From positions 1-34,826 of the forward strand of contig WHSM01000007.1 in the NCBI GenBank assembly GCA_009380105.1: DNA of 34,826 nucleotides, written 5' to 3'. Made by a program: the position numbers and the translations under genes. Each line of letters starts with the position of its first letter. Position 1 is the stretch's first letter. The notes beneath the pieces were generated by a model. It had not been told where the DNA came from and made no database searches. It saw only the letters and a list, made by a program, of their open reading frames with translations. Of this stretch, positions 5,858 to 30,831 are shown piece by piece. This DNA comes from Micromonosporaceae bacterium. Lineage in GTDB: Bacteria; Actinomycetota; Actinomycetes; Mycobacteriales; Micromonosporaceae.

Positions 5858-6723
5858 AGTTCACGTGTTCGATCGCGCTGAGTCCGCTGGAGCAGCTCGT
5901 GCCGCTGGCACAGACCGCCGAGGAGTGCGGCTTCACCTCCATCGCACTGCCGGACTCGCTGTTCTACTCCGAGACGGTGTCGGCTTCGTACCCGTACACG
6001 CCGGACGGCTCCCGCTTCTGGGACGCCGACACGCCGTGGCCGGATCCGCTGGTCGCCGCGGCCGCGATGGGCGCCGCGACGAGCCGGATCCGCTGCTACA
6101 CCCAGGTGTTGAAGCTCGGCCCGCGCAGCCCGCTGCTGCTGGCGCGGCAGGTGGGGTCGGTCGCGGTGCTGACCGGAAACCGTTTCGGCCTCGGCGTCGG
6201 GCTGGGCTGGTCGCCGGAGGAGTCGCTGTGGTGCGGCGCGCCGTTCGACCATCGGGGCGCCCGGGCCGGCGAGGCGATCGAGATCCTGCGGCTCGTGCTC
6301 GGCGGCGGCATGGTGTCCTACGACGGCGACTTCTACCGTTTCGGGAAGCTCCAGATGAGCCCGGCGCCGTCGCAGCCGGTGCCGATCTACGTCGGCGACC
6401 ACAGCGACGCCGGGTTGCGGCGGGCGGCTCGCGTCGGCGACGGCTGGACGTCGGCGATGATGCCGTTCTCCGAGCTGCGCGACACGATCGCGCGGCTGGC
6501 CGCGCTGCGGGCTTCCTACGGCCGGGCAGACGAGCCGTTCGAGATCCAGGCCGTATGCGTGGACCGGTTCGGGCTGGACGGCTACCGGCGGCAGGCCGAG
6601 ATCGGGGTGACCGACGCGGTGGTGATGCCGTGGCTGTTCTACGGCGTCGGCTTCGACGGCTCACTGGAAGCGAAGCGGGACGGTGTCAAACGGTTCGCCG
6701 ACGAGATCATCGCCAAGCTCTGA
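5854..6723 (+). CDS. LLM-class F420-dependent oxidoreductase (Rv3520c-like)
   Basis: MKFTCSIALSPLEQLVPLAQTAEECGFTSIALPDSLFYSE... with ...GNRFGLGVGLGWSPEE... and PVPIYVGDHSDAGLRRAARVGDGWTSA, typical of luciferase-like monooxygenases. Confidence 0.85.
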   Translation: MKFTCSIALSPLEQLVPLAQTAEECGFTSIALPDSLFYSETVSASYPYTPDGSRFWDADTPWPDPLVAAAAMGAATSRIRCYTQVLKLGPRSPLLLARQVGSVAVLTGNRFGLGVGLGWSPEESLWCGAPFDHRGARAGEAIEILRLVLGGGMVSYDGDFYRFGKLQMSPAPSQPVPIYVGDHSDAGLRRAARVGDGWTSAMMPFSELRDTIARLAALRASYGRADEPFEIQAVCVDRFGLDGYRRQAEIGVTDAVVMPWLFYGVGFDGSLEAKRDGVKRFADEIIAKL

Positions 6724-6757
6724 GCCCCTGTCCCTCCCCACCGCGAGGAGACGCAGC

Positions 6758-7195
6758 ATGACAGTGACGTGGCAAGCGAGTGAGGCGGCGCACCCGGCAC
6801 GGGACGCGGCGCGGCGCTCCATGGACGCGGTGTCGCGGGGCGCCAAGGACGAGTGGCTGGCGCTGTTCGCCGACGACGCGATCGTGGAGGACCCGATCGG
6901 CCCGGGCCCGTTCGACGAATCCGGGAAAGGGCATCGCGGCCGTACGGCGATCTCGGCCTTCTGGGACGCGTCGATAGCCATGGTGGAGCGGTTCGAGTTC
7001 GTGGTGCGCGACTCGTTCGCCTGCGGGGACGAGGTCGCCAACGTCGGCACGATCACCTCGCACCTGCCGGGCGGCATGGTCATCGACGCCGACGGGGTGT
7101 TCACGTACCGAGTGGACGAGGCCGGCCGGATCACGGCGCTACGCGCGTACTGGGAGATCAAGCGCGCCGCCACCACCCTCCACAAAACGACCTGA
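6758..7195 (+). CDS. SnoaL-like / NTF2-fold (ketosteroid-isomerase-like) protein
   Basis: 145 aa; WLALFADDAIVEDPIGPGPFDESGKGHRGRTAISAFWD... is characteristic of SnoaL/NTF2 proteins. Confidence 0.75.
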   Translation: MTVTWQASEAAHPARDAARRSMDAVSRGAKDEWLALFADDAIVEDPIGPGPFDESGKGHRGRTAISAFWDASIAMVERFEFVVRDSFACGDEVANVGTITSHLPGGMVIDADGVFTYRVDEAGRITALRAYWEIKRAATTLHKTT

Positions 7196-7210
7196 CCCCG
7201 CCCGACCCTC

Positions 7211-7287
7211 TCCACGTGGTTGGGCAAGTGGCCGTTCGGGCGTCTGGTTTGTCCGCATTGCAAGCACCATGTGCCCAACCAAGTGGA
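7211..7287. repeat. Palindromic element copy 1: 16-bp inverted arms around a 45-bp centre
   Basis: Left arm 7211-7226 tccacgtggttgggca; right arm 7272-7287 tgcccaaccaagtgga (15/16 complementary). Centre holds cgttcgggcgtctggtttg, which recurs at 11848-11866. Confidence 0.85.
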
Positions 7288-7292
7288 GGCAC

Positions 7293-10200
7293 TCAGCGGG
7301 GCGGAGGCTTGTATGTGAACAGATAGAGCCCGTGATCTCCGGTGCAGCAGATGGTGCGGCCATCCGTCTGCCAGCAGCAGTCCCGCAGCGCCCCGTCCAC
7401 CTGGATCGCGGTCGTGCACTCGCCGGTGGCGGCGTCCCACACTCGTGCGGTGCCGTCCGAGCCGCAGGTCACGATGGCGGATCCGTCCGGCGACACGGCG
7501 CACCCGTACACCCAGTCCTTGTGGCCGCGCAGGACCAGCCGTTGCCGGCCGGTCCGCGGATCCCAGACCCGCGCGGTCCCGTCCCGACCGCAGGTGACAA
7601 TCCAGCTCCCGTCGGGCGCCACGGCGCGTCCCTCCACCGCGCCGTCGTGGCCCCGGAAGACGAGTCGCTGCCGTCCGGTCTCCGGGTCCCAGATCCGCGC
7701 GGTCCCGTCCCAGCCGCAGGTCACTATCCAGCTCCCGTCAGGCGCCACCCTGCACCGGGACACCGCGCCGTGGTGGCCCGCCAACACGCGCAACTGTCTT
7801 CCCGACGCCGTGTCCCAGATCCGCGCTGTCTCGTCGGACCCGCCGGTCACGATCCAGGCGCCGTCGGGCGCGACCGCGCATCCCAGCACCCAGCCGTCGT
7901 GGCCGGCGAGCACCCGAAGCTCCTCGCCGGTGGCGGTGTCCCACACGCGCGCCGTCCGGTCCCAGCCGCAGGTGACCGCGAACGACCCGTCCCGCGCCAC
8001 CGCGCAGCATGAGGCGCCGCCGCGATGTTCTCCCAGGACCCGGCGCAACTCCCCGGTAGTGGGATCGAACATCCGGACCGACCCGTCCCGGCCGCAGGTC
8101 ACGATGAACGACCTGTCCCGTGCGACCGCGCATCCTTCGACCGCGCCGTTGCGGCGGTCGTCCGGCGCCCATTGCGGTTGCTCACCAGGGGCATCCCAGA
8201 TCCGCACGGTTCCGTCCCAGCCGCAGGTGACGATCTGGGAGCCGTCAGGGGCGACCGCGCACCGCAACACCGCTCCCCGGTGCCCTTTGAGCACCCGCCG
8301 TCGAGCGCCGGTCGCGACGTCCCAGATCCGCGCCGTGCCATCGGCGCCCCCGGTCACAACCCAGCTCCCGTCCGGCGACACCGCGCATCCCTCCACGGCG
8401 CCGTCGTGGCCTTCCCAGGTCAGCCGCTGCTCGCCGGTGGCGGCGTCCCACACTCGTACGGTCCCGTCCCGGCCGCCGGTGACGACGAACGATCCGTCCG
8501 GCGCGGCCGCGCAGGCCGACACCCAGCCATCGTGGCCGCCCAGCAGGAGCCTCTGCCTGCCGGTCGCCGTCTCCCAGATTCTCGCGGTCCCGTCGCGCCC
8601 GCAGGTCACCAGCCACGAGCCGTCCGGGCTCACCGCACAGCCCAACACGACATCGTCATGCCCCTCCAGAACCCGCCAGCACTGTCCCGTCGCCGCGCAC
8701 CACACCCGTACGGTTCCGTCGCGACCACCGGTGACGACGAAGGCCCCGTCGGGCGACACCGCGCACGCCGACACCCAGCCTTTGTGGCCGCGGAGCTCGA
8801 CCCGCTGCTGGCCGGTCGCGGCGTCCCACACCCGCGCCGTCCCGTCCCAGCCGCAGCTCACCAGCCACGAGCCGTCCGGGCTCACCGCGCAGCCCAACAC
8901 GACGTTGTCGTCGCCTTTCAGAACCCGCCTGTGCTGACCGGTTGCCACGTCCCACAGCTGCACCGTGGCGTCCCAGCCGGATGTGGCGATCCACGTCCCG
9001 TCCGGCGCGACGGCACACCCCGAGACCCAGCCATCGTGGCCGCGGAGGACACGGCAGAGAGCCGCGTCCGGCTGATCCGGCAAGGGCAACTTGCTGATCA
9101 GCGCCGGGCCCGGCGCGGCCGAGGCGTACGCCTGGCCGAGCGAGCGCAGCGTGACGTCGTTGTCGAGGCGGCTGAGCAGCGTGTTCGTCAACGCGTTGGC
9201 CGGCTGAATCGGGCCCAGCAGATGCGCGGCCCGGCCGATCACACGTCGCAGCGCGTTGGAGATGTGGGAGTCGACTCTGGCGAGATCGGCCTCCACCGCG
9301 CCCGGACCCAGCCGGTGGAGCTTGGCGCTGACCCACCGCAGGTCGCACGCCAGCGTGGCCAGCTCCTTGCCCAGAGCGGCTTCGGCCAGGTGGTAACCGA
9401 GGTGCTGCCAGAGGTAACCGGCGCCGCCTGGCAGCCGCCACCATGGCCTCGGCCCCTCATCGACTGGCTGCAGCACCGCTGTCTGCGTCACGTCGGCCGC
9501 TGTCCGCCCCACCTCGACCGCGGCCCGCGCCAGGCCACCCGCCTTCGAAGCCCCGGCACTCGCGGAGGCGAGCAGCCCTGTGAACGCGGCATCCAGCAAC
9601 CGGCCGTTTGTGCTGGTCAACTGGTGCGGCCCGGACTCGCGGCGGAGGTACGCGCGAATGACGTCGTGCAGCCGGATCGCGCCAGTGTCCGGCAGGTGCT
9701 CGACGATCAACGACATGTCGGCCAGCCGTTCGCACAGCCGAGCGACCTCCAGCTCGGCCAGGCCGCCTGTGGCGCCCCACAGCAGCGTCAACACGTCGCG
9801 GGGGATCTCGGCGCCGCTGGGGAAGATTCCCAACTCCGCGAATCGAGTCTGGGCATCGCTGTCCAGAAGGTCGATGCTGGCGCGCACCGACGCCCGCACC
9901 GCCCGGTCTCTGCTGTCTTCGTCGGCGAGGTCCAAGGTGGCCGGGCCGTCATCGGCGAGGCGTTGGACCATACGGCGCGCCGCTGTCACCGGCGCCACCC
10001 CGCTGGCGACGTCCGCGCGCAGTCGGCGGTTGGCCAGGCTCAGCAGCAGCGGCCACTGGCCGGTCAACTCCAGCAGCCGACCGACCTCGGGACACGGCAG
10101 CCCCTTGATGCCGGTGGTGAGCACCGCACTGCCCTGCTCGGGCCTCATCTGATCGACCCACACCCGCGCGGCTCCGGTCGGCAGGACACTGGGCCGGCGG

Positions 10201-11066
10201 GTCGTCACGAGTCGCGTGCAGTGCGGGCCGTCGAGCAGGAAGGGACGCAACTGGTCCGACGACCACACGTCATCGATCACCAACAGCACGTCTGGTCGCT
10301 TCTCGAGCAGCCCTCCCAGAGTCAGGCCAGCCTGGTAGGGGTCGGTGTCGGTGGGGCGGCGTCCGCACAGCTGCTCGCTGAGGTCGTTCACCTTCTCCGC
10401 CAGGTCCGCGTCGGTGAGGTTCTCGCCGATCTCCACGGACAGACAGCCGCCGGGAAACCGCTCCTGGACTTCCTGCCGGCTGGCGACCTGCCGCACCAGA
10501 GTGGTCTTGCCGAAGCCGCCCGCTCCGAAGAGCGCCGTGGTCACACCCACGATCCCGTTGCACCGGCGGGCCAGTAGTTCCACCAGCTTCCCGGCCAGAT
10601 CGGGACGCTCGACGACGCCTTCCTCCGGCTCGGGGACTCGCCACAGCCGCTCGTCCGCGGTCGCGGTCGGGGTCGGGGTCGGCTCAGACTTGTCCGGATG
10701 GGGCTGGTCCGGCGGGTCCGGCACTGGCTCCCCGCTCGCCGGGATCCCGCTCGGGGCAGTCTTCATTGCGACGGCGCCGGCCAGAATCGTGGCGACGACC
10801 GCCGCCGCAGCCAGCCACCACCGCCATTCCTGCACGTCGAACGCATCGGCGGTGAGGCCGAGGATCATGGCGTAAAGGGCCGCCAACACCGCGCCGCAAA
10901 ATGCCGTCACGGTGCCCCACGAGACTCGTTTCCGGTTATCCCCCGGACTGATCACTGCAACCCCCCTGATGTCGCTGGCGTCCAGAAGACTCCAGCCCGT
11001 TGTCCGCCTCCCCCGAGGCCGAGTTGATCGAATTCGATTTCCCCGAAGAATCCCCATCAGCCGCAC
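7293..11066 (-). CDS. NB-ARC/STAND NTPase with N-terminal TM pair and 14 WD40 blades
   Basis: Walker A GAGGFGKTTL, Walker B VLLVIDDVW, helical linker AGYLWQHLGYHLAEAALGKELATLACDLRWVSAKL, then 14 WD-type repeats. Hydrophobic stretches TVTAFCGAVLAALYAMILGL and WWLAAAAVVATILAGAVAM near the N-terminus. GTG at 10955 preceded by GGGGGG may be the true start. Confidence 0.9.
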   Translation of the reverse strand: MRLMGILRGNRIRSTRPRGRRTTGWSLLDASDIRGVAVISPGDNRKRVSWGTVTAFCGAVLAALYAMILGLTADAFDVQEWRWWLAAAAVVATILAGAVAMKTAPSGIPASGEPVPDPPDQPHPDKSEPTPTPTATADERLWRVPEPEEGVVERPDLAGKLVELLARRCNGIVGVTTALFGAGGFGKTTLVRQVASRQEVQERFPGGCLSVEIGENLTDADLAEKVNDLSEQLCGRRPTDTDPYQAGLTLGGLLEKRPDVLLVIDDVWSSDQLRPFLLDGPHCTRLVTTRRPSVLPTGAARVWVDQMRPEQGSAVLTTGIKGLPCPEVGRLLELTGQWPLLLSLANRRLRADVASGVAPVTAARRMVQRLADDGPATLDLADEDSRDRAVRASVRASIDLLDSDAQTRFAELGIFPSGAEIPRDVLTLLWGATGGLAELEVARLCERLADMSLIVEHLPDTGAIRLHDVIRAYLRRESGPHQLTSTNGRLLDAAFTGLLASASAGASKAGGLARAAVEVGRTAADVTQTAVLQPVDEGPRPWWRLPGGAGYLWQHLGYHLAEAALGKELATLACDLRWVSAKLHRLGPGAVEADLARVDSHISNALRRVIGRAAHLLGPIQPANALTNTLLSRLDNDVTLRSLGQAYASAAPGPALISKLPLPDQPDAALCRVLRGHDGWVSGCAVAPDGTWIATSGWDATVQLWDVATGQHRRVLKGDDNVVLGCAVSPDGSWLVSCGWDGTARVWDAATGQQRVELRGHKGWVSACAVSPDGAFVVTGGRDGTVRVWCAATGQCWRVLEGHDDVVLGCAVSPDGSWLVTCGRDGTARIWETATGRQRLLLGGHDGWVSACAAAPDGSFVVTGGRDGTVRVWDAATGEQRLTWEGHDGAVEGCAVSPDGSWVVTGGADGTARIWDVATGARRRVLKGHRGAVLRCAVAPDGSQIVTCGWDGTVRIWDAPGEQPQWAPDDRRNGAVEGCAVARDRSFIVTCGRDGSVRMFDPTTGELRRVLGEHRGGASCCAVARDGSFAVTCGWDRTARVWDTATGEELRVLAGHDGWVLGCAVAPDGAWIVTGGSDETARIWDTASGRQLRVLAGHHGAVSRCRVAPDGSWIVTCGWDGTARIWDPETGRQRLVFRGHDGAVEGRAVAPDGSWIVTCGRDGTARVWDPRTGRQRLVLRGHKDWVYGCAVSPDGSAIVTCGSDGTARVWDAATGECTTAIQVDGALRDCCWQTDGRTICCTGDHGLYLFTYKPPPR
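7296..9056 (-). repeat. WD40 tandem array: 14 blades, mostly 42 codons (126 bp) each
   Basis: Counted in the translation, e.g. RVELRGHKGWVSACAVSPDGAFVVTGGRDGTVRVWCAATGQC. Blade 8 (WAPDDRRNGAVEG...) and blade 14 are degenerate, consistent with two 7-bladed propellers. Confidence 0.9.
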
Positions 11067-11827
11067 GGCTACGTGCGCGATTGCCGCTGGAGCCTGCTCA
11101 CCTCGCTAACGGGCCAGCGTCTCGCGTCAAACCGCGATTGGAGAGTGGTGAAGTCTCGGCACGCGGCCTTCCGTCGGTCGATCAAAGAGTTCCCGAGCAC
11201 GGCCAGGTCTCGGGGAACTCGCCGCCGTCGCGGTATCGTCTGAGCGCAGATCAGCGGCTTTGAGGGCTTGCTCGCGCTAAGGATCTCGACGCGGCGACGC
11301 ATCGGCACACGCCAGGCGACGCATTGGGCCCGGCCGCCCGCGAGACGCGGATCATTCAGACAAATATGAAAGCGCGAGGCGACGCGCACGCGTCAGCGAA
11401 ACCTGGCAGGAGGAGGTTTCCACCTCCGCCCCCACCAGGTCACCGACAGCCAGCCACACGGACAGTGCTCCGCTGAAATCGAGAACATCCCCACACCCGG
11501 AAACCGAGGCCACCATTGTTGGCTAATACTCGTACTACGTTCGGTCCGCCGTGTCAATGCCCGCGGGCACCGTGGATCCGCGGCGCGTCACATGAGGCGT
11601 CACCAATCCGGGACCGGGCAAGGGAAATCCCTAGCTTTGCCGAAACCAGGCCAAAACGAATATCGCGCCAGATCCTGCGCACGGAAATTCGGTGGCATAA
11701 CGTAAAACACTAATCGCCGTACGTAGGGTAACCATTCCACATTGCGGAAAACCCCTAGTCAATGCGCATGCCCGACAGGGCACCACCTCGAGAACAACGC
11801 TGTCTGGTCCGCCGTGCTGAGCGCGCC

Positions 11828-11902
11828 GACCCGGTGGGGCACATGGTCGTTCGGGCGTCTGGTTTGCCCACGTTTCGAAACCGTTTGCGCAACCAGGTCG
11901 GA
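11828..11902. repeat. Palindromic element copy 2 (degenerate)
   Basis: Aligns to copy 1 in the same orientation: tgg(c/t)cgttcgggcgtctggtttg(t/c)cc is 24/26 identical (7229-7254 vs 11844-11869); flanking arms are partly conserved. Confidence 0.75.
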
Positions 11903-11930
11903 CGGACGCAAGACTCGAGCGCAAGGCCGG

Positions 11931-13169
11931 TCAGCCGTAGCGGACCGGGAGTTCCTTGATCGCGTGCAGCCACCCCGACCGCAGGCGGCGGGGCTCGCCG
12001 GCCATCCGGATGCCGGGCAGGTGGTCGGCGATCGCGTTGAACATGAGGTCGATCTCCAGCCGTGCCAGGTTCGCGCCGAGGCAGAAGTGCGCGCCGCTGC
12101 CGCCGAACCCCAGGTGCGGGTTGGGGCTGCGGTTGATGTCGAAGCGCTCCGGCTCGTCGAACACGTCAGTGTCGAAGTTCGCCGAGGCGTAGAACAGCCC
12201 GAGCCGGTCCCCGGCCTTGATCTCCTGGCCGCCGAGCGTGGTGTCGACCATCGCGGTGCGCTGGAAGACGCTCACCGGGGTGGCGAACCGCACGATCTCG
12301 TCCGCGGCCGTCGCGGGCCGGGTCGACTTGAACAGCTCCCACTGGTCCGGGTGGTCCAGCATCGCCATCATGCCGTGGGTGATGGCGTTGCGGGTGGTCT
12401 CGTTGCCTGCCACCGCGAGCAGGATCACGAAGAAGCCGAACTCGTCGGACGAAAGGTGACCGCCGTCCACATCGGCGTGGACCAGCTTGGTGACGATGTC
12501 GTCCTGCGGGTGCTTCTTGCGGTCCTCGGCCATGTCCATGAAGTAGCCGAGCATCTGCGCGGCGGCCGCCTCGGGCTCGATCTCGTAGTCCGGGTCGTCG
12601 TACGCGATCATCTGGTTGGACCAGTCGAAGATCTTGATCCGGTCCTCCTGCGGCACCCCGAGCAGCTCCGCGATGGCCTGCAACGGCAGCTCACACGCCA
12701 CGTCGACGACGAAGTCGCCCGCGTCCTTCGAGGCCGCCGCCTTCACGATCCGCTCGGCACGCATGGCGAGCACGGTCTTCAGGCTGTTGATCGCGCGCGG
12801 TGTGAAGCCCCGGGAGACGATGCCGCGCAGCGTGGTGTGATGCGGCGGGTCGATGTTGAGCATGATGAACCGCTGCAACTCGATCTGCTGCCGGGTGATG
12901 CCCTGCTGGAACCGGATGATCGCTGTGTTCTCGTACGAAGAAAAAGTCTCGCTGTCCTTCGACACGTCCTTGACCTCGGCGTGCCGGCTCACCGCCCAGT
13001 AACCCTCGTCGTCGAAGCCGGAGGCGCCGCGTCGCTGCGGGATCCACGTCACCGGCGCGGCGCGCCGCAGCTCGGCGAACTCTGCCATCGGCCGGCCGTG
13101 CGCGTACAGGTCGGGATCGGTGAAGTCGAATCCTCGGGGGATGCTGGGCGCAGCCACGGCGACCTCCAT
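11931..13169 (-). CDS. cyp125: Cytochrome P450 CYP125 family (steroid C26/27 monooxygenase)
   Basis: Heme-binding FGGSGAHFCLGANLAR, I-helix AVAGNETTRNAITHGMMA, and CYP125-like FSSYENTAIIRFQQGITRQQIELQRFIMLNIDPPHHTTLRGIVSRGFTPRAI. ATG at 13169 (MEVAVAAPSIPRGFDF) preferred to the longer ORF. Confidence 0.92.
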   Translation of the reverse strand: MEVAVAAPSIPRGFDFTDPDLYAHGRPMAEFAELRRAAPVTWIPQRRGASGFDDEGYWAVSRHAEVKDVSKDSETFSSYENTAIIRFQQGITRQQIELQRFIMLNIDPPHHTTLRGIVSRGFTPRAINSLKTVLAMRAERIVKAAASKDAGDFVVDVACELPLQAIAELLGVPQEDRIKIFDWSNQMIAYDDPDYEIEPEAAAAQMLGYFMDMAEDRKKHPQDDIVTKLVHADVDGGHLSSDEFGFFVILLAVAGNETTRNAITHGMMAMLDHPDQWELFKSTRPATAADEIVRFATPVSVFQRTAMVDTTLGGQEIKAGDRLGLFYASANFDTDVFDEPERFDINRSPNPHLGFGGSGAHFCLGANLARLEIDLMFNAIADHLPGIRMAGEPRRLRSGWLHAIKELPVRYG

Positions 13170-13172
13170 TCG

Positions 13173-13186
13173 TGAAACGTGTTCTA
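13173..13186. promoter_or_regulatory. KstR-like operator upstream of cyp125
   Basis: tgaaacgtgttcta matches TNNAACNNGTTNNA exactly. Confidence 0.75.
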
Positions 13187-13273
13187 GTCCGATTGAAACA
13201 CACCCCACGGAGCGCGGGAAGAGCCAAAACATCATGTGGTACGCGGTTCGGCCGCCCACCAGCCTTGTCTTGA

Positions 13274-15383
<2,110 letters not shown>

Positions 15384-23504: not shown

Positions 23505-23518
23505 ACCAAGCACTTGCT
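23505..23518. promoter_or_regulatory. KstR2-like operator between fadE30 and fadD3
   Basis: accaagcacttgct matches AnCAAGnnCTTGnT exactly; lies in the divergent promoter region. Confidence 0.8.
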
Positions 23519-29328: not shown

Positions 29329-29334
29329 AGTTTG

Positions 29335-30831
29335 GTGATCAAGCCCAGAGGCGTGTTCGATCGCGATCAGGAATGGTCGGACCTGGGGAGATTCCTCCAG
29401 GCTCCCGGCCCAGGCATGCGCCTTGGTGTCGTGTACGGCCGAAGGCGGCAAGGGAAGTCGTTCCTACTACGCCGGTTGGTCGAGGCCACCGGTGGCTTGT
29501 ACTTCATGGCCGTGCAGGAGGAGCGCCGTCTGGCACTCGAGCGTTTCGCTGCCGCCGCCGCTCGAGGACTGTTCGGCCTGCCCGCCGGAAGCATGACATT
29601 CGACAGCTGGGACGCGGCGTTGCGCGGGGTGTTGACCGCCATGCCACAGGCGGCTCGACTGGCCGGCACGCCACCAGTGTTGGTCATCGACGAACTGCCG
29701 CATGTGCTTGGACATTCACCAGAGTTGCCGTCGGTGCTTCAACTGCTCTACGACGAGTCTCGGGACGACTCGGCGGCGCCGCCGGTGCGAGTGATCGTGT
29801 GTGGGTCGGCGTTGGCCGTGATGTCCGAGCTGCTGTCGGGAGCGAAGGCGCTGCGCGGTCGAGCGATGTTGGACATGTGCCTGCAGCCGTTCTCGTTCTC
29901 TGACGCGGGAGCCTTCTGGGGGGTCAGCGACCCGGACCTGGCGTTCCACCTCAACGCCGTGCTGGGCGGCACGCCAGGATACAAAGATCTGATCGCCGAG
30001 CCGCCGCCGGGATCGGTCGCTGAACTCGGTGGTTGGCTCGCTCACAGCGTGCTCGACCCGTCGCACGCGCTGTTCGACGAGACGGATTATCTGTTACGCG
30101 AAGACCCGCGTATCACCGACCGCGCCCTGTACCAGTCGGTGCTCACGGCCATCAGCCGCGGCGCCACCACGCCCTCCAAGATCGGGGCGATCGTCGGACG
30201 GCCCGCCCAGGCGTTGGCGCATCCGCTGGCCGTGCTGGAGAAGGCCGGGTTCGTCAACCGCGTGGAGGACGTCCTCCTGCATCGGCGGGCCCAGTTGCGC
30301 CTGGCGGATCCCATAGTCCGCTTTCAACAGGCCATCAGCCGGCCGCGCATCGCCATGCTGGAAGAACGACGGGCCGCCGAGGTGTGGCGGGCTTCGGCGA
30401 ACACCTTCGCCTCCGGCGTGCTCGGGCCGCATTTCGAACACCTGGCGCGCGCCTGGTGCGCCAGCCGTGCCGCGACCGAGTTCTTCGGAGAACAATTCGG
30501 CCCGGTCGGCCCCACAGTGATCAACGACGCGCGGGGACACGCCAGGCATGAGTTGGACGTCGTCGCGCTCGCAGACGGCGAACTGGCCCGCAGCCAAGGC
30601 GCCGTCGTGAGACTCCTCGGAGAGGTGAAACACTCACAGCAGCCGCGCACTGTCAGGGATCTGGAGCGACTCGACCACATCCGCCGCGTGCTCCTCGAGC
30701 GGGGAGTGCGCGCGGACCGAGCCCACTTGGTGATCTTCGCGCGTCGCGGAGCGGACGCCCAGCTACGCGCCGCCTGCGACGACCGCGCCGACGCGGCCCT
30801 CGTCGACCTTTCCACGATGTACGCGCCGTAG
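29335..30831 (+). CDS. AAA ATPase with DUF234-like C-terminal domain (archaeal-type ATPase family)
   Basis: Walker A YGRRRQGKSFLLRRL, Walker B PPVLVIDELPHVL, then winged-helix-like region TDRALYQSVLTAISRGATTPSKIGAIVGRPAQALAHPLAVLEKAGFVNR, then HELDVVALADGE...VVRLLGEVKHSQQP (D...ExK nuclease-fold-like). Confidence 0.78.
   Translation: MIKPRGVFDRDQEWSDLGRFLQAPGPGMRLGVVYGRRRQGKSFLLRRLVEATGGLYFMAVQEERRLALERFAAAAARGLFGLPAGSMTFDSWDAALRGVLTAMPQAARLAGTPPVLVIDELPHVLGHSPELPSVLQLLYDESRDDSAAPPVRVIVCGSALAVMSELLSGAKALRGRAMLDMCLQPFSFSDAGAFWGVSDPDLAFHLNAVLGGTPGYKDLIAEPPPGSVAELGGWLAHSVLDPSHALFDETDYLLREDPRITDRALYQSVLTAISRGATTPSKIGAIVGRPAQALAHPLAVLEKAGFVNRVEDVLLHRRAQLRLADPIVRFQQAISRPRIAMLEERRAAEVWRASANTFASGVLGPHFEHLARAWCASRAATEFFGEQFGPVGPTVINDARGHARHELDVVALADGELARSQGAVVRLLGEVKHSQQPRTVRDLERLDHIRRVLLERGVRADRAHLVIFARRGADAQLRAACDDRADAALVDLSTMYAP

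Follow-up and report, generated by a model that had tools for sequence, protein, structure and literature searches.

Several described systems lie close to the gene reported here. The anti-phage STAND proteins of the bNACHT and Avs type follow a tripartite plan, with an N-terminal effector, a central NTPase and a C-terminal sensor (PMC12169576), and the WRAP-type STAND proteins of cyanobacteria carry 14 WD40 blades, arranged as two 7-bladed propellers, C-terminal to the STAND ATPase (PMC9218822). In the BASS/BELL arrangement of bacterial NLRs, the membrane is the presumed target of the partner protein (PMC7889193), and small TM effectors are also present in Pycsar/CBASS-type systems (PycTM and 2TM). 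A module found at the N-termini of some relatives discussed below, DUF4062, has been reported as a TIR-like NADase of bacterial immunity (PMC13174449). Apaf-1 joins an NB-ARC domain, a winged helix, an APAF-1 helical domain and twin WD40 propellers, and fly Dark belongs to the same layout class. We describe a gene with this layout over its full length, located in the window (i.e., the whole 34,826-nucleotide stretch of DNA, from a soil actinomycete of the Micromonosporaceae, that was analyzed). Judged from its sequence, it most likely encodes a single-gene defense or self-destruct receptor and not a component of the surrounding pathway, a reading that follows from the exchange, among its relatives, of the hairpin part for other killing modules.

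Position within the steroid-catabolism locus

The window is a steroid-catabolism locus of the FadA5/Ipd/KstR2/FadD3 type, with genes for AMP-binding, ChsH2-like OB/zinc-ribbon, thiolase, luciferase-like, SnoaL, P450 and FadA5-like proteins; enzyme names beyond the Pfam families were assigned by position and similarity. A second P-loop gene in the locus (29332-30831; ATPase_2, archaeal-type AAA) is likewise not an obvious pathway gene. As originally noted, the STAND gene lies between a SnoaL-like gene (6683-7195) and cyp125 (the P450 gene at 11931-13283). The position was compared with 20 cyp125 loci from the window's own family, their place in the Micromonosporaceae being judged by matching contigs to named relatives. 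The gene was missing at all of them, in keeping with the original view that a non-pathway gene had come to occupy it; in 11 of these loci, thiolase directly abuts cyp125. Across the 20 loci (L158-L177), what lies between thiolase and cyp125 varies: where the two do not abut, a cholesterol-oxidase-like gene, a permease, ABC genes or others separate them. The junction accepts different inserts in this family, and the STAND gene is cargo there. Close homologs of the steroid genes were found beside none of the 80 named relatives of the STAND gene that were checked.

The window was also scanned for operators, using patterns that we take to be those of KstR and KstR2 and permitting at most one mismatch in the KstR-type box. 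Eight KstR-type boxes were present, compared with 1.65 expected, and matches stand before pathway genes at 2621, 2667, 13173, 13276, 34409 and 34466; a KstR2-type box precedes a pathway gene at 23505. With the same assumed patterns, neither box was found in the 975 nt upstream of the STAND gene. On the strength of synteny (0/20 cyp125 loci) and the operator scans, we rejected the reading of the STAND gene as a pathway gene.

A palindromic repeat of about 75-80 nt, with arms TTGGTTGGGCA and TGCCCAACCA, has a strong hairpin and is REP- or MITE-like. Two like-oriented copies, at 7210-7288 and 11833-11898, flank the STAND gene, and each follows the 3' end of a gene. The repeat occurs in at least seven places in the draft genome (including contigs C4, C56, C179, C383 and C499 of G000), and was not detected in 39 sampled relatives. 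We considered, and rejected, these two copies as the insertion ends of the STAND gene: both belong to a dispersed repeat that lies behind gene 3' ends, and therefore say nothing about how the gene arrived.

Domain architecture and structural model

The open reading frame (7293..11066, minus strand, 1257 aa) begins with GTG and contains no internal stops. Its GC content per codon position (0.71/0.57/0.86) indicates a real gene. A GTG at 10955 (residue 38) has a strong Shine-Dalgarno-like AGGGGGG just upstream, at 10961-10967, and no such sequence was found before the GTG at 11066; the internal GTG is therefore the likelier start, and the protein probably comprises 1220 aa, beginning just ahead of the first hydrophobic segment. 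Residues are numbered here from GTG 11066 (Table 1).

Table 1. Coordinates of the STAND gene, its encoded domains and its upstream region in the window
Feature	Position	Strand	Evidence
STAND/NLR gene (TM hairpin-NB-ARC-winged helix-APAF-1 helical domain-14 WD40 blades)	7293..10955	-	ORF, codon composition, Shine-Dalgarno
WD40 propeller 2, 7 blades, residues 976-1257	7296..8141	-	Pfam, blade comparison, model
WD40 propeller 1, 7 blades, residues 670-958	8193..9059	-	Pfam, blade comparison, model
APAF-1 helical domain (PF17908), residues 550-617	9216..9419	-	Pfam
MHD-like motif LHDV, residues 466-469, end of winged helix	9660..9671	-	H and D invariant, 39 sequences
NB-ARC domain match (PF00931), P-loop GAGGFGKT at 10503-10526	10185..10586	-	Pfam, sequence
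Proline-rich linker, residues 103-150	10617..10760	-	Sequence; low pLDDT
TM helix 2, residues 82-102	10761..10823	-	Hydropathy 2.01; helix in model
TM helix 1, residues 51-73	10848..10916	-	Hydropathy 2.18; helix in model
Upstream region (975 nt) without KstR or KstR2 box	10956..11930	-	Motif scan

The architecture first read from the sequence (i.e., two N-terminal hydrophobic segments, an NB-ARC domain, an Apaf-1-like helical linker and 14 WD40 blades) was confirmed by hydropathy, Pfam and an AlphaFold2 model. The NB-ARC match, at residues 161-294, scored 46.5 bits (Pfam cut-off 23.5), and the APAF1_C helical domain, between the winged helix and the WD40 region, 39.9 bits (cut-off 22.8). The Walker A, Walker B, TTR and MHD-like motifs are all intact, the winged helix is present, and the top PDB sequence match of the NB-ARC/helical part was Apaf-1 (E 3e-13). 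Thirteen WD40 stretches were recognized by Pfam, plus a weak 14th blade; in the model, two sets of strands, 28 before and 27 after an interruption at residues 959-975, make up 7+7 blades. The propellers of Apaf-1 have 7+8. When the model (1200 residues, built on an alignment of 39 sequences; mean pLDDT 87.6, pTM 0.82) was compared with the PDB by Foldseek, full-length murine Apaf-1 (3sfz) ranked first, with an E of 6.8e-59 over 1149 columns, followed by a highly repetitive propeller and then the human apoptosome; Dark (8y6p) also matched. The repetitive-propeller structures 2ymu and nvWRAP-T were among the best matches of the protein. Median blade identity within the two propellers is 59.5%, suggesting that the blades were not freshly amplified. 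Variation between blades falls at the surface positions where it would be expected, a pattern that we do not read as positive selection on the blade faces.

Kyte-Doolittle averages over 19 residues peaked at the two N-terminal segments and did not exceed 1.11 at any later point in the protein. AlphaFold2 made both segments helical (52-74 and 82-103), at a low local pLDDT of about 45-60, so that hydropathy and model alike predict the pair of TM helices that had been expected. The tail ahead of them is short, with three basic residues and one acidic, and the turn between them is acidic; by the positive-inside rule, the tail and linker ends of the hairpin would both be cytosolic. In 33 of 42 TM-type relatives, the region between the helices carries N-x-x-[TSAFG] with a W at most ten residues further on, a motif present in 4 of 31 non-TM N-termini. 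The window hairpin has Leu in the Asn column common to most TM-type relatives and keeps a W-x-W turn, as in relative L015.

We found no Pfam or PADLOC family that covers the hairpins, the best being weak PycTM and holin matches. PycTM matched 4 of 31 hairpins (best E 2.8e-5) and the window hairpin with an E of 0.045; both identities were rejected, as these weak matches probably reflect shared hydrophobicity. The original prediction had seen no TIR, nuclease or protease effector, and Pfam indeed detected none of these, nor a caspase domain; searches of Pfam, NCBIfam, PADLOC and PHROGs also gave no enzymatic effector hidden in the N-terminus. The caspase-recruiting CARD of Apaf-1 was sought with Pfam and not found, the TM hairpin standing in its place. 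In a defense-model search of the kind that had been proposed as a check, PADLOC returned only a WD40-driven HEAT-ARM match, due to generic repeats, and nothing for the NB-ARC core; it contains no model for this protein. Nor does the protein resemble the NB-ARC regulators of the AfsR/SARP type, the AfsR model scoring 41 bits against a cut-off of 1430 and Pfam finding neither the N-terminal DNA-binding nor the BTAD domain of that type. The draft genome has ten NB-ARC matches, and the six paralogs with readable N-termini resemble SARP- or HTH-type regulators, differing in architecture from the STAND gene.

Relatives, the effector slot and sensor evolution

A search of one genome per species (85,462 species) yielded 223 relatives, the best 80 loci of which are from actinomycetes; the hosts are mostly filamentous members of this group. 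Distribution is patchy within the window's own family, a relative being present in 55 of 250 genomes and 17 of 44 genera. Plasmids carry relatives as well: those of Streptomyces, in some cases close to a gene for a recombinase, transposase or integrase, and one of Rhizobium. None was found in phage records. Comparison of flanking ORFs showed lineage synteny alone, with no conserved partner gene beside the relatives. In two of these (L048 and L126), the frame breaks within or soon after NB-ARC and the remaining core lies in a separate ORF, which suggests gene turnover or assembly errors.

The relatives have the NB-ARC core in common but not the N-terminal part that precedes it. At least one TM segment was present in 42 of 79; the others include, by Pfam, DUF4062, TIR_2, SEFIR, trypsin and HTH domains and, by eye, caspase-like (L066) and nuclease-like (L105) regions and, in about 13, amyloid-like motifs. 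On the NB-ARC tree, in which many inner branches are weak, N-terminal type requires 19 changes, against a minimum possible of 6; the starred branches alone already require 5 changes for TM, 6 for amyloid and 6 for TIR/DUF4062. The supported group of four to which the window belongs contains one TIR/SEFIR-type and two four-TM members. These changes amount to an exchange of effectors and put the hairpin in the effector position, lending support to the earlier suggestion that the TM pair could serve there.

Next to each of two relatives without TM segments, L052 and L056, a small protein is encoded (6453-6890 and 6060-6533, respectively). It has a hydrophobic helix at its N-terminus and, at its C-terminus, a motif (MYNAPGGSITV and QYNAPGGTITV) resembling the receptor's own N-terminus. 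At L111:709-1653, two neighbors of a further TM-less relative carry a C-terminal motif matching the receptor N-terminus. The motifs suggest that the neighbors at these three loci are likely BASS/BELL amyloid pairs.

In five Lentzea species (L064, L065, L067, L071 and L103), a TM-type receptor occupies one site behind the sdh operon. The data on sensor divergence concern these relatives, about 41-42% identical, and not the window's own gene. Identity among the five is 98.3-99.8% for SdhA, 77-99% for the hairpin plus NB-ARC, 79-99% for the engine and 51-84% for the WD40 sensor, the drop starting at the propellers, and pN/pS is 0.38-0.65 in the WD40 region vs 0.07-0.29 in NB-ARC. The L067 receptor is nearer to L064 in its engine and nearer to L065 in its sensor. 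Synonymous difference is also raised in the sensor, a sign that segments of it have been exchanged in addition to relaxed or diversifying change, and the overall pattern is what a recognition domain engaged in conflict would be expected to show. Exchangeable N-termini, together with fast-evolving sensors in the TM-type relatives, support the NLR-like STAND architecture originally proposed.

Interpretation and comparison with known systems

We consider it probable that the gene encodes a solitary, single-gene conflict receptor of the NLR type, whose NB-ARC ring clusters the hairpins and so damages the cell's own membrane, and that it has no role in steroid catabolism. At rest, by analogy with the autoinhibited Apaf-1 monomer, the double WD40 propeller would be folded back on an ADP-bound NB-ARC. 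A trigger, most likely a phage product, would act on the propellers, upon which NB-ARC would open and oligomerize into an Apaf-1-like ring; the ring would gather the N-terminal TM hairpins, and the membrane would be permeabilized or depolarized, leading to growth stop or death. More tentatively, the hairpin may represent a membrane effector in its own right, so far uncatalogued, of actinomycete NLRs, with N-x-x-T/S/A closing TM1, followed by a W-rich turn and TM2. On ring assembly it would form a pore, the sensor being exchanged and diversified between species and the hairpin and engine kept near constant. Such a built-in hairpin effector may be undescribed, and we make no claim of novelty for it.

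A receptor of the same kind could instead use the hairpin as a mere anchor, the membrane-bound ring signaling through another protein and the hairpin being harmless. The shortness of the hairpin, which carries no catalytic or pore signature, fits this alternative, as does the capacity of related, amyloid-type STAND proteins to recruit partners; however, the relatives share no partner gene and the hairpin stands where others hold complete effectors, making a simple anchor rather unlikely. Fungal incompatibility proteins also have twin, diversifying WD40 sensors, and the mostly filamentous hosts would likewise suit a receptor that discriminates kin, or self from non-self, or that serves developmental cell death, like the fungal HET type, rather than one for phage. 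Nothing specific speaks against such a function, which anatomy does not separate from phage defense, but effectors like those of the relatives (TIR, DUF4062 and nuclease) typically occur in anti-phage systems that have been reported, and we regard it as quite doubtful. A regulator or membrane sensor of steroid catabolism seems highly improbable: the location between SnoaL and cyp125 and the regulator-like character of the genome's other NB-ARC proteins favor it, but the gene is absent from all 20 cyp125 loci compared within the family, 11 of which have thiolase directly against cyp125, no relative lies beside steroid genes, Pfam found no DNA-binding domain and the upstream region has no KstR/KstR2 box, though the KstR type is enriched in the window.

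If the gene indeed encodes a conflict receptor, its product is a bacterial protein with a near-full Apaf-1 plan, in whose effector slot membrane hairpins, NADases, proteases and amyloid adaptors freely replace one another, and the apoptosome layout would be tied to bacterial conflict. It would also provide (i) a one-gene system in which the signals sensed by twin WD40 propellers could be identified, and (ii) an effector type missed by current defense-annotation models. Should the hairpins form a pore, the apoptosome would be its own executioner. The Lentzea receptors, with near-constant hairpin and engine and different sensors at one chromosomal site, are ready experimental material.

Set against the described systems, the window protein is about 22% identical to Apaf-1 and bears a TM hairpin where Apaf-1 has its CARD. 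It has the 14-blade, two-propeller layout of the WRAP type, with a blade identity borderline under the 60% threshold for highly repetitive propellers (PMC9218822), but differs in having the hairpin and no coupled TIR-STAND gene. The BASS/BELL arrangement (PMC7889193), seen in the closely related L052 and L056, shares the membrane as presumed target; here, by contrast, the receptor contains its own membrane part and has neither partner nor amyloid motif. The tripartite plan of bNACHT/Avs proteins (PMC12169576) is matched in a protein known here from sequence, with NB-ARC instead of NACHT, a WD40 sensor and the TM hairpin. With the PycTM and 2TM effectors it has in common a small TM module, but lacks a nucleotide-sensing partner. 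The window protein thus belongs to a known kind, the bacterial NLR/STAND receptors with exchangeable N-termini, and stands close to the WRAP type.
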